Positions 10,201-22,200 of a DNA stretch of 64,000 bases are shown piece by piece. The notes below the pieces were generated by a model that was given only the letters and a program-made list of their open reading frames with translations, was not told the DNA's origin and searched no databases. The stretch is from Diphasiastrum complanatum (taxonomy: Eukaryota > Streptophyta > Lycopodiopsida > Lycopodiales > Lycopodiaceae). The translations under genes and the position numbers were made by a program. Location of the stretch: the NCBI GenBank assembly GCA_029204225.1, contig CM055102.1, forward strand, positions 14,237,601 to 14,301,600, in the 5' to 3' direction. Numbering within the stretch: position 1 is the first letter of the stretch; the number at the start of each line of letters is the position of its first letter.

Positions 10201-13200
10201 GGCACTATGACCATTTACAAATCAACTGAACCCTCCTCATTTCTCTAACTCTACTTCTACTTCTACTTTCTCTATTCCCTTTTTAACTTCCACAAAGCGC
10301 ATTGTGCCATCTTTGTAGATGAGACGTTTGCCCATGTCTTTTGCTCTCGTTGGCGAGCTTTCTTCCGTTCTTCCACCTGTACGTAGGTTAGGTCTTCATC
10401 CCGGAAGGTCTGAGTACCCTTTAATGTGGCTTGTTGATGGAGTGCATCTTGCCTTTTTGGTACGTCGGGCCTTGTCCAAGCCGGTATCATGATGGTGGAG
10501 CATGTTTGTCAGAAATTTCTTAACTTCTCCGATAGCGTCTTGCGTGTCGGAGAGACCACGTAAAAGAACATTTAGGGCTTTTTGTTCCCGTAATCGATTC
10601 TAAAGTAGCTGATATAAATGAAATGGGAATTTTGTTACCTTTGAGAATATCGGCCCATGTTTGCGTGTGCTATTGGGGCTGATCTTGAGTGTTTGTCTTG
10701 TTCCTTGGCATCCTGGATGGATGCGATGGTGGCAGCTTGGGTCTTAGTTTGGCTTTAAATATCTGCCAAAGTCCGATCCATATTTTGGATATGGGTACTT
10801 CGGTGGAGTCACAGTAATGAGTAATGTTGGTGATCTGCTTCTCATGTGCTTCCACTTTCACTTGTAGTTCGCAATATGTTCCTGAAGTCGAGCCACCGAT
10901 GCCAGTCAAGGTGGTGGAGCTGTCATAGCCGACTTCATATGGGAGGTTGTGAGAGATGTGATTGCTGACATTGGGGTGGAGCACGTGGTTCAGGTTGTCA
11001 CAGACAACGCTGCGAACTGTAAGCAGATGGGAGAGATTCTGACGAGGGAGCACCCCACGATTGTATGGACACCGTGTGTTGCACATTGCATAAAGATATG
11101 CAAGCTGCTCAAGCTATGCTTGACCACATAATTTTCTTGGACAAATTTTTCCAGTGATGTTTACTATCCTGCCCCTCTAAGCCTAAACCCTAAACCTACA
11201 CACTACTATGTCTTATATGATGAGATCGGTTTTTCCCCGGATGAACTTCAACAGCTTACTAATTACTTATGCTCCAAACCCTAAACCCTAAACCTACACA
11301 CTACTATGTCTTATAGGATGAGATCGGTTTCTCCCCAGATGAACTTCAGCAGCTTACTAATTACTTATGCTCCAAACCCTAAACCCTAAACCTACACACT
11401 ACTATGTCTTATATGATGAGATCGGTTTCTCCCCGGATGAACTTCAACAGCTTACTAATTACTTATGCTCCAAACCCTAAACCCTAAACCTACACACTAC
11501 TATGTCTTATAGGATGAGATCGGTTTCTCCCTAGATGAACTTCAGCAGCTTACTAATTACTTATGCTCCAAACCCTAAACCCTAAACCTACACACTACTA
11601 TGTCTTATAGGATGAGATCGGTTTCTCCCCGGATGAACTTCAACAGCTTACTAATTACTTTTGCTACAACTTGATCCCTAGACCCTAAACCTTAAACCCT
11701 GGCTGCAATACGTTGTCTCCCAGCAGCCCACTATCATCTTTGGAATGGATGTATTACATTGTTGCCTAACTTAACATGTTGATGTTTTGTTTTCTAGGGT
11801 GCGAAATCGGGCGTCCTATCTTTGGCACAACTACGTAAACTGCAGGCAGGATCAAGCGGTGGAAAATCCAGCTAATTGGCCTACACCATCTATATTCCTT
11901 TGACGTTGCTTGAATCAACAAGTTTGTTTTTAGTCAAAAATATATTACATCCAGCACTAATTGGATTGAGAAAAAGTGGGACGAGGATCCGCATTACATG
12001 AAGATGACTTCACAAGCTCATCCTCACTCTTAGGGTGAGGGGTAAACCTTGGCGGGCTAATAACCTTATGTGGTGGGCAACAGACGGCACCTGAAACAGA
12101 TCCCGTTTGGAGAAACTGCCCAAGAACTACAATTGAATTCAATCATACCTGAAAAAGAGCATTTTGTAACAGGACTACCGGAGCAAAACCTATCTTTCAA
12201 ATGAGCCACCTGCTTTTCGAGCTCTGGTCTACCTATTTTGGTACAAATAATCTATTTATAGCTTTGTTGTTGAAAAGAATGTGCATCATACACTCTCATG
12301 AAGCTCTATGGTACCATACTCCAGTCTGTAGTGAGTTCAGAGGCGGAAGCTCGGAGATTACATGCATTGGGGCAGGCAGGTTTCCGATCTCATTATTCTA
12401 CCACTGACCATATTTTTACACTTCGAGCCTTGATTGAGGAAGCTAAGTACAGGAAAGAGAGGGTCTACTGCTGTTTTGTAGATTTCAGGAAAGCCTTCGA
12501 TTCTGTACCACGCTCCCTGCTCATTCAGAGACTTCGTGACCTTGGTTTCTCCACAGATATTGTTTTAGCAGTGATGGCTCTTTATGAGAAGGTCTTGGGA
12601 TGTTTCCGACATAGCAGTGGCCTATCTGATCACATTTGGAGCACCATTGAGGTGAAACAGGGGTGCTCTCTTTCACCGGTTCTCTTTGGATTGTATATTG
12701 ATGAGTTAGAGCGAGTCATCTCACAGTATGGCGGGGGTGGCTGTAGACTTGGCACCATTCTGATTGCTATTCTCCTTTATGCGGATGATGTAGTACTAGT
12801 ATCCCCGACCAGAGAGGGTTTGCAGAGGCAGCTGGATTGTTTACAGGGATTTTGTACCAGATGGGGGTTGGGGGTGAACACTGCGAAGACCAAGGTTATG
12901 GTCTTCAACACTTCTCGAGCCTTCATGCAGCGCCAGGAGCTCATCCTAGATGGACAGGCCTTAGAGGTAGTTTCCTCTAATACCTATTTGGGGATACTCT
13001 TTTCTGGTCCTACCTTCAGCATGCGGCAGGCTGCCACCACCCGACTTGGGAAGGGGCATTCCTCTCTTGTTCAGCTTGAGCGGTTCTGTTTCAGGAAGCT
13101 CATCCGAGATGCTCACAATAAGTGTAGACTCTTTGATACTATTGTCACCCCCACAGCCTTATATGCAGCAGAGACATGGTGTACCGGCCTCCCTTCATCA

Positions 13201-19200: not shown

Positions 19201-22200
19201 GACAATCACAGAGAGCAACTGGCTTCTCATGATTCCCTGCTTCTAGTGATGCAATCGCATCTTCAAAAGTTGGATACTTCCATTCAAGAACGAAGTTGCA
19301 GTTATAAAAAGTGAAGCTTCTTCCCAAATTGCTACTTCGGCAAAAATCCAGCAACTCAAAAATCAGGTGGAACAACACCGTACGGCTGTCCAATCATGGG
19401 CATAAGTTATGGACTTGGCTCATTACATTTGCCGCGTCCATTCTTTTATTGTAATTATGCATAAGCAGGCCTAAGGGCCCTTTTTATTCATATACTGGCC
19501 TTGGGCCCTATTTGGTTATATTTTTAGGACTTGGTCACATTGATTTGGAGTGGGGGTCCTCCTATTGGGAGGGCGCACTATTTTCCCTCCAAATCCTCCA
19601 TTTGATTCAGGGAGAGGGTATAAGTAGGGCAGCATTGTATTCTATTATTCAGTTTATGATGATTGCTCCTCTTTAGCCTCCTTAAGCATTCTCTTCCTGC
19701 TTTCTAGCTTAAGTCCTGCTTTCTAGCATAGCTAGTGAATCTTAGCTTGTAATGGTATCAGAGCACTTTCCTGCAGATTGGTGGAGGCTGTCCAGCGCCC
19801 TACCACCCATCACTTTCATCGATTTTTCTCCGTCATGTTTCAAGATTGGTGGTGGCTGTCCAGCGCCCTACTGCCCATCACTTTCGACGATTTCTTCATC
19901 ATTTTTTGCAGTTTTGGTGGAGGCTGTCCAGCGCCCTACTAACCCATCACTTTCGTCGATTTTATCGGCAGATTTTCATTGTTTTTGCATATTTGGTAGC
20001 TATTGCCCAGAGCCCTACTACCTCATCATTTTCAACACTTTTCGTCACTGATTTGCTGTCCATTTTTTATATTGATTGGAAGCTGTCCAGCGCCCTACTA
20101 CCGTCTCATTTTCAGCGGTAACCCATCACTTTCGTCGATTTTTTTCGGCAGATTTTCATAGTATTTCAGATTTGGTAGCTATTGCCCAGCACCCTACTAC
20201 CTTATCATTTTCGACACTTTTCGTCACCGATTTGCTGTCCATTTTTTATATTGATTGGAGGCTGTCCAGCGCCCTACTACCGTCTCATTTTCAGCGGTTC
20301 TTTTCACCGACTTGCTGTCCGTTTCGACTATTGATTGGAGGTTGTTCGGCGCCTTACTTCAGCACCTTTTTTCAGCCTATTTTTCAGCATATTGTGGATC
20401 TTGGCAGTTGCTGCCCAGTGCCCTATTATCTTCAGCTTTTACCTCTCTTTGTTGGCACTACCGAGTGAACGACGGATCAGCACCCACCCAGGTATTGCTT
20501 GCGCCCTTTTTGCACTTCCTTTTTGCACCTACTTGCTGTCTTTTCTGCTCACATACTGCTCTTTTCCAGCCCCCTATTCATGTTCATATTTGTCGCCTCA
20601 CACCCTCCTCTTTCCATTTTTCCATTTTGTTAGGATCCTTCTACTTTCTCAGCCCCCTATTTTTTGATTATTATCCATCTTGATTAATTGTTTATGTGCC
20701 ATTTTTGGTGATTTCGGAAGTTAGACTAAGTTGGGGTGACGACAAACATCCTCTCCCTCAGGTTTTTGTCTCTTCCTTAGTCCCTATGGCGACTTCTTCA
20801 TCAGAAGACCTTCTGCAGAGCTCTTTAGATGATCGTTTTACACATATTGATTCCCGCATGGATCATCTTGAGAGTCGTATTGATCGTATTCTTTCTAGCC
20901 TTGAGACTATCCTACCACGAGGGGATACCACCCCCCCAGACATTCTTCATCGTCCTGGTAAAGCACCTTTATTTCCTATTTTGAGTACGCCTGCTCCTGC
21001 TCCATCTCCATCTTCAGGAGGTGCTTTTGGTAGTACGTTTGGTCTCCCTTCATATAGTGCTAGTTCTTATGGGTCTCCTTTCATGTCTTTTATACCACCA
21101 CCTGGATTTCCCTCCGCACCACCAGGATTTCCTTCTACTTTTTCAGGTAATCCTGAGCCTCATCGCATCCAGCTTACAACTTATTCTGGTTCATCTGATG
21201 GGAATATCTTGTTTTCTTATTTGTGGTGGACGTATTCATCTTGATCCTCAGAAAGTTCAGGCTATTGAAAATTGGCATGTCCCAACCAATGTTCATTCTG
21301 TTCGTATGTTTTTAGGTATGGCAACCCATCTTCGTCGTCCTGTTAAGTATTTTGCCACTGTGGCTGCTCCGCTTCATTCGTTACTAAAGAAGTTTCATAC
21401 CTTTGTTTGGACTTCTGAGTGTCAAACTGCTTTTGATGCTTTACGTCATGCCATTGTTTCTGCTACTGTTATGTGTCTTCCCCAGTTTGATCAGCGTTTA
21501 ATTGATGAGACTGATGCTAGTGCTATTGGTTTAGGCACTCTTCTCCGTCAGTCCGAGTGTGTTATTGCTTATGAGTCTCGTCGTTTGTGCTCTTATGAGC
21601 AACGTTACTCTGTACATGAAAAATAACTACTTGTTGTCATCCATGCTCTTAAGAAATGGCGTCATTATTTGTATCGTGTTCCCTTTGACATTATTACTGA
21701 TCATCAGTCTCTCCGTTATCTTTTTTCTCAACGTGATCTTAGTGATCGTCAATATCGTTGGTTACAATTTTTACAGTCTTTTCATTTTGATATTTTGTAT
21801 CGTCCAGGCAAGGCAAACACGGCAACTAATGCTTTATCTTGTCTCCCTGCATTGTTACATAGTATTGTTGCTTCAGTTCCTTCTTGGTTTCATGATTTAC
21901 CGGCCGCATATTTGTCTTGTTTTGACTTTTCTGATGTTTATCATACTCGTCCCCTGTCGTCCTCTCAGAAGTTCCAAGTTTATTATATTGCTGATGATCG
22001 TTTATACCACTATGGTGCTTTATGTATTCCCCAGTTCTCTTTCCATTCGTCCTCAGTTGTTGTCTGATGCTCATGCTTCCCCTATCAGTGGCCATTTTGG
22101 TTTTCAAAAGTCTTATGCACGTCTTAAGGACAATTTCTATTGGCCATCCATGAAGTCTGAGCTAGCCCATCTTATTCGTGATTGTCCTTTTTGTGCCCGT

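Follow-up and report, generated by a model that had tools for sequence, protein, structure and literature searches.

An apparent preference of a plant LINE for TC repeats and for the TC tails of its own copies

A long interspersed nuclear element (LINE) of Diphasiastrum complanatum was found in head-to-tail arrays in which truncated copies follow one another in the same orientation, each starting directly at the end of the TC-repeat tail of the previous copy. The arrays lie in a window of 64,000 nucleotides (contig C11, 14237601-14301600), which is the whole stretch of DNA analysed here, while genome-wide counts refer to the 1.74-Gb assembly of 5,176 contigs. The explanation that we favour, at a probability of roughly three in four, is that of an APE-type LINE whose RNA would carry a (UC)n tail able to prime on nicked TC/GA repeats and thereby recreate its own target. 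Insertion into TC is a preference and not an absolute requirement.

Head-to-tail copies and their junctions

The initial annotation had described a same-orientation array of copies C, F, G, a 48-bp fragment (here I) and D, with junctions leading from a tail to a truncated copy, and the same pattern on the minus strand near 10003. The array was recovered when the junctions were read directly and the copies aligned, and on the minus strand the tail of E (10033-10005) is followed by H exactly from 10004. The copies and tracts of the window are as follows.

12280..14479, plus strand: LINE copy C, with a 5'-truncated second open reading frame (ORF2) from the reverse transcriptase (RT) to the C-terminal zinc motif, and a 3' untranslated region (UTR) with hairpin and AAAAGACATT linker
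14437..14483, plus strand: 3'-end hairpin region of C (same element at 16494-16540 and 18519-18565, and at 10088-10042 on the minus strand)
14480..14582, plus strand: TC tail or target tract between C and F
14583..16539, plus strand: LINE copy F, truncated in the RT exactly at the tract end, with stops and a frameshift in its frame
16540..16654, plus strand: TC tract joining F to G, with about ten C behind it at 16655-16664
16664..18561 (start approximate), plus strand: LINE copy G, truncated in the RT
18562..18573, plus strand: short TC tail of G, a few TC units
18574..18621, plus strand: severely truncated copy I, 48 bp, part of hairpin and linker
18622..18728, plus strand: TC tract between I and D
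18729..19405, plus strand: LINE copy D, covering the 5'UTR and the beginning of ORF1 (both resembling those of A by eye); then, by eye, a long terminal repeat (LTR) retrotransposon
10034..10111, minus strand: 3' end of LINE copy E (hairpin, linker)
10005..10033, minus strand: TC-rich tail of E
9844..10004, minus strand: LINE copy H, truncated C-terminus of the RT, 70% identical to C 13822-13982
about 5357..9743, minus strand: LINE copy A, with 5'UTR (limit by eye), ORF1, APE endonuclease and RT; 3' part missing, TC at neither end
about 4382..5381, minus strand: second minus-strand copy, end of ORF1 and APE endonuclease, joined to A without TC

Copy C ends in ...GGCATGGAAAAGACATTATTGAAGCTTTCTTTC(TC)n at 14582 and F begins, within the RT, at 14583. 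Copy F in turn ends in AAAAGATGTTAATAAAG...(TC)n at 16654, and after the run of C the sequence of G sets in, again within the RT, from about 16664. The end of G (...TATAGACATTAATATATTCTATTCTCTCTCTC, with its few TC units to 18573) leads into fragment I, which closes with AAAAGACGTTAATAATAAATAATTCTGATTCTAATTC(TC)n and a tract reaching 18728, D starting at the next position. Thus F, G, I, D and H each start directly at the end of the previous copy's TC tail and in the same orientation. The 3' linker given in the initial annotation, AAAAGAYRTTAATAA, is exact in F and I only, with two mismatches in C and E and more in G, and a search allowing up to two mismatches gave five matches, one of them (40881) unrelated, where 1.0 was expected by chance.

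The DNA identity among the copies is 65-78% where alignable (83% in one 58-bp piece), and C, F and G are 69-75% identical to each other over their alignable parts; at the protein level, G and A share 83% of 279 residues. The frame of C, whose 5' end lies outside TC, is open for 669 amino acids, unlike that of G, which carries stops and frameshifts as F does. The copies are members of distinct subfamilies lying side by side.

Pfam searches identified RVT_1 in copies A, C, F and G (E 8.1e-32 to 4.4e-15) and an APE-type endonuclease (PF03372) in the second minus-strand copy (34.2 bits vs a cut-off of 24.5), the match in copy A (22.7 bits) being below this cut-off. In the relatives P0006 and P0008, PF03372 and PF00078 occur within one protein. 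For ORF1, all Pfam matches were below cut-off, the best being a coiled-coil family at E 0.022. The copies show 5' truncation with alike 3' ends, as in LINEs, LTRs of the element not having been separately searched. These features identify the family as an APE-type LINE with ORF1 followed by endonuclease and RT in ORF2. The nearest named proteins to the RT of copy C are those of the fern Adiantum nelumboides (46-54% identity over protein parts; higher-scoring matches are unnamed), in agreement with the earlier assignment to a plant element, and the matches of copy A include Taxus (35%) and the liverwort Calypogeia (33%). The closest solved RT structures, R2 (E 1.1e-17) and human L1 (E 1.2e-10), do not decide the clade.

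Two further observations concern these junctions. Runs of C stand beside TC tracts at the F/G joint (16655-16664) and at three tracts that do not adjoin these LINEs (L028, L029 and L044; 76266, 90181 and 240669 in the coordinates of the 264-kb listing). Between 9744 and 10004, H is followed by what by eye is part of the neighbouring ORF2 segment in inverted orientation (plus strand, 9744-9840) and then by the 5'UTR of A without TC, an order that no simple succession of insertions fits. Simple twin priming was considered for H (sense 10004-9844 with inverted 9744-9840) and rejected, as the order of the pieces does not fit it.

TC tracts and tail hairpins beyond the window

Copies beside the window were analysed in about 284 contiguous kb, composed of the window, 200 kb downstream and 20 kb upstream. 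Copy K, in the downstream part (L029), starts directly after (TC)34 with a left flank that is non-LINE by tblastn; by eye it is truncated within the endonuclease and carries an internal deletion, and at its 3' end the hairpin and AAAAGACATTAATAAAG lead into (TC)10, beyond which come A18 and other DNA. Copy M, in the upstream part (L050), starts in ORF1 directly after (TC)50, again with a non-LINE left flank, and its tail, which is without the linker motif, runs into (TC)42 and then into N, a short and degenerate piece whose weak similarity (best E 0.16, with an alignment by eye) suggests an RT. Downstream of M, a unit of TC and about 93 bp is present twice, as a local duplication. Stand-alone TC microsatellites are therefore also targets, from K and M.

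In total, 13 5' ends were judged, with E, the L030 copy (which starts at the edge of an LTR element) and the duplicate of N set aside, and eight of them (F, G, I, D, H, N, K and M) lie directly after TC. Seven tails could be followed into their 3' flank: five (C, E, F, G and I) clearly lead into a LINE of the same orientation, one does so weakly (M to N), and that of K leads into other DNA. Long TC tracts are uncommon in the 264 kb, where 18 tracts of at least 8 units, summing to about 1 kb, were found; five adjoin these LINEs and 13 do not.

In the whole assembly, the exact tail motif AAAAGAYRTTAATAAAG occurs 6,799 times (3,356+3,443), and the reversed pattern 2+2 times. The first 100 listed tails are spread over 0.24-26.4 Mb of contig C1, with 17 neighbour pairs at 5 kb or less where 1.9 are expected at random. 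Fifteen of these close pairs have the same orientation and two the opposite one, a number reached in about 0.1% of 20,000 strand shuffles (P about 0.001). Together with the tails of the 284 kb, this same-orientation clustering agrees with the earlier proposal that the element's own tails serve as targets.

The joining of TC to truncated copies was also searched for as (TC)7 followed within 30 nt by TTTTGGCATGGAAAAG, a part of the 3' hairpin, which returned 153 forward and 14 reverse rows, a locus giving several rows since the pattern can start at many positions of its tract. The 100 listed rows of these joins comprise at least 23 loci and 16 different junction strings. The same hairpin pattern with GA in place of TC gave 0 + 0 genome-wide, and the control for the (TC)7-hairpin pattern had 0 matches. 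With many joins to TC and none to GA, the tested pattern shows joins of a single orientation, to TC tracts, from copies truncated at many different points. These counts, like the TC tracts before K and M, uphold the claim of TC as the target.

In minimum-energy folds, each of six tails (C, E, K, F, G and L001) forms an inner hairpin with a stem of about 5 bp closed by a short loop; C, K and F also have an outer helix, GTCTT/AAGAY, and G a near version of it. Over five tails of the window's genome, a small number on which to rest a covariation test, 4 of 10 hairpin pairs are changed on both sides; pairing is kept in 92% of cells, against 34-60% when the alignment is slid, and the covariation score was reached by 11 of 500 shuffles. 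These changes point to a conserved 3' stem-loop with compensatory changes, as in stringent-type 3' ends, whose recognition by the RT is putative.

A search of genome-collection contigs gave six loci, two of them in a metagenome-assembled genome (MAG) of Trichormus and four, weaker (25-29% identity) and left unused, in other MAGs; among 86 pattern stretches of viral contigs no relative was found. The Trichormus MAG (CAKZGI01; L001, L002 and L025) holds 36 RT-alignment matches with E up to 0.001, ranging from very strong to marginal. Presumably, this eukaryotic LINE DNA is that of Azolla carried with its cyanobiont. The tails of the relatives are TTTCTTTCTTTC or TTTCTT(TC)8, and one of three copies, truncated to about 100 bp, sits in TTTCTCTT and was counted in favour of TC targeting. 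An older and looser preference for pyrimidine runs matching the tail may have been sharpened into TC targeting in the window's host.

A covariance model built from the five tails of the window's genome gave 13 matches, namely its five training tails, three within the MAG loci and five others. The MAG tails (L001 and two in L025) score 21.5, 20.5 and 32.9 bits (E 0.21, 0.32 and 0.00094), sequences without a LINE end scoring 22.9 and 20.8 bits, so that only the third is significant alone. Among the five others, L036, L040 and L037 showed no LINE end when looked at by eye; the matches in L030 and L032 score 13.7 and 14.2 bits. A match in the MAG (L048) proved to be cyanobacterial and was dropped, and L049 and L050 were left out of this search.

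Mechanism, competing explanations and known systems

Under the favoured mechanism, the RNA would end in the hairpin and a pyrimidine (TTTC/TC)n tail, and the endonuclease would nick a TC/GA repeat on its GA strand. The (UC)n tail could then pair with the exposed (GA)n 3' end and prime reverse transcription, which would usually halt early, causing 5' truncation, and the free end would be joined to what remains of the TC tract. A new copy would thus be preceded by TC and end in a fresh TC tail. Because that tail would again be a target, head-to-tail arrays could grow by successive insertions from several subfamilies.

Several results weigh against this mechanism. Five of the 13 judged 5' ends (C, A, the second minus-strand copy and the L031 and L038 copies) are not after TC, and while some of them may be later deletions, copy C looks like a plain non-TC end. 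One of the eight TC-fronted copies, N, was identified on weak similarity, and our overall confidence is slightly lower because the M-to-N joint rests on it. Among the 100 listed tails, neighbour pairs at 5-10 kb have no orientation bias (4 same, 6 opposite). Two of the 23 listed loci with TC-hairpin joins are identical, one has an AC run between tract and hairpin, and the count as a whole represents one subfamily with copies truncated near the hairpin. As for the presumed Azolla copies, two of three (L001 and the main one of L025) are not in TC at their 5' side, none of the three tails is followed by another copy, and two of the three (E 0.21 and 0.32) are within the noise of the covariance model.

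The same junctions from tail to truncated body would also be produced by template jumping, in which the RT moves from one RNA to the (UC)n end of another, so that a whole head-to-tail concatemer arises in a single insertion, whatever the target. PMC8857657 deals with template jumping by a non-LTR reverse transcriptase, and a non-templated addition could account for the ten C between F and G. However, it leaves unexplained the TC in front of K and M, which follows non-LINE DNA, and needs RNAs of several diverged subfamilies in one complex; the open 669 codons of C beside the broken frames of F and G also hint at different ages, the events being too few for significance. We regard it as improbable, and yet as the strongest of the competitors.

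Less probable still is that unrelated LINE fragments were united after their insertion, when dispersed TC tracts underwent ectopic recombination or end joining with each other. TC tracts do take part in the local duplication downstream of M, where the (TC)n and about 93-bp unit occurs twice, and the TC-less joint of A with the second minus-strand copy shows that deletions occur. Nevertheless, recombination needs a 5'-truncated partner already fronted by TC, which is the very point to be explained, and the restriction of the joins to TC, with none to GA, is expected from priming and not from random joining. Segmental tandem duplication of one LINE unit, named beforehand as what would overturn the self-targeting claim, would give the same order and orientation of parts, and a small duplication does exist near M; for the window array it is refuted by C, F and G being 69-75% identical and truncated at different places, leaving it with next to no probability.

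It may further be that the LINE creates the very niche that it uses up: as every insertion into a TC microsatellite would leave a new TC tract behind, the element would be both user and major producer of long TC microsatellites in its host, and array growth would be self-catalysing and shared by subfamilies competing for the same landing pads. We put this forward tentatively, at slightly less than even odds.

In animals, the HeT-A/TART/TAHRE elements and the insect SART/TRAS elements build LINE arrays on a simple repeat or behind an older copy, with telomeric repeats or chromosome ends as their targets. The target of the present family, by contrast, is interstitial TC repeats. LINE arrays, as here, are likewise formed in the Drosophila HTT arrays (PMC12477314), a source that also describes plant transposable elements in general as often flanked by microsatellites. 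Microsatellite-specific non-LTR families are known in animals (PMC4640811). Among them, members of the Tx1 and R1 clades combine an APE endonuclease with insertion into simple repeats, as does the present family, whereas the HERO families and the (TG)n-specific Togen of fish also insert into simple repeats but have a restriction-like endonuclease (PMC4640811). The microsatellite-specific examples given in that source are animal, and the present family is from a plant. Site-specific LINEs with APE endonucleases are stated in PMC13295347 to be confined to Tx1 and R1.

In array structure there is a likeness to Zepp and ZeppL of green algae, whose nested insertion into existing copies gives tandem arrays mostly of 3' ends through 5' truncation (PMC8226300), and similar nested, one-orientation arrays of truncated copies are found in the window array and in the clustering of the 100 listed tails. 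Zepp belongs to the L1 clade and is clustered at (putative) centromeres (PMC8226300). Unlike in Zepp, what is shared here is a TC tract, stand-alone TC microsatellites are hit as well, and the listed tails lie dispersed along the contig; L1 was not the best-scoring solved RT relative, which does not exclude the L1 clade. Stringent-type plant LINEs (ME1), also of the L1 clade, have, as here, a 3' stem-loop, with a variable stem and a conserved flank and loop (PMC3747384). The RTE/Bov-B LINEs have microsatellite-like tails, the RTE signature described in the same source being a thymine stretch with TA and not a TC tract, and arrays going unmentioned in that description.

In literature searches of an open-licence library, no plant LINE targeting TC repeats appeared among the papers listed. 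The TC-targeting LINE looks new for land plants, microsatellite-targeting LINEs of animals and Zepp arrays of algae being already known. A plant lineage with thousands of tails in which the tail is the target would offer a natural test of whether pairing between RNA tail and nicked target chooses the site, and would tie the activity of LINEs to how dinucleotide microsatellites arise and spread. Since LINE ends flank some TC tracts, simple sequence repeat markers derived from such tracts in this genome may be multi-copy.

Other features of the element and its surroundings

Behind the C-terminal zinc motif of ORF2, a PIP-box-like motif, Qxx[ILMV]xx[FYW][FYW], is present at 13999-14022, 16174-16197, 16315-16338 and 18172-18195 of the window, copy F having a second one near its C-terminus. 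The PIP-box is a PCNA-binding motif. The zinc motif was found in 146 of the 219 homologues scanned, and 47 of these 146 extend at least 60 amino acids behind it. Within these 47, the PIP-box-like motif occurs in 12 (P0001-P0005, P0016, P0021, P0121, P0138, P0170, P0187 and P0205), compared with 0.31 expected from shuffles. Runs of (Ser-Leu)n and the like, as TC read through would give, were not found among the 120 homologous proteins listed.

By eye, one LTR retrotransposon family with a primer-binding-site-like TGGTATCAGAGC occupies window positions 19406-20400 and L030:7400-7700, and it interrupts the LINE ORF1 both in copy D and in the L030 copy. The stretch between the divergent LINE arrays holds five copies of a 98-bp repeat with the plant telomere-like CCCTAAACCCTAAACC (11182-11669), and the segment at 10980-11160 resembles by eye a fragment of a hAT-type transposase. 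A short endonuclease match was also seen at 45235-45635.

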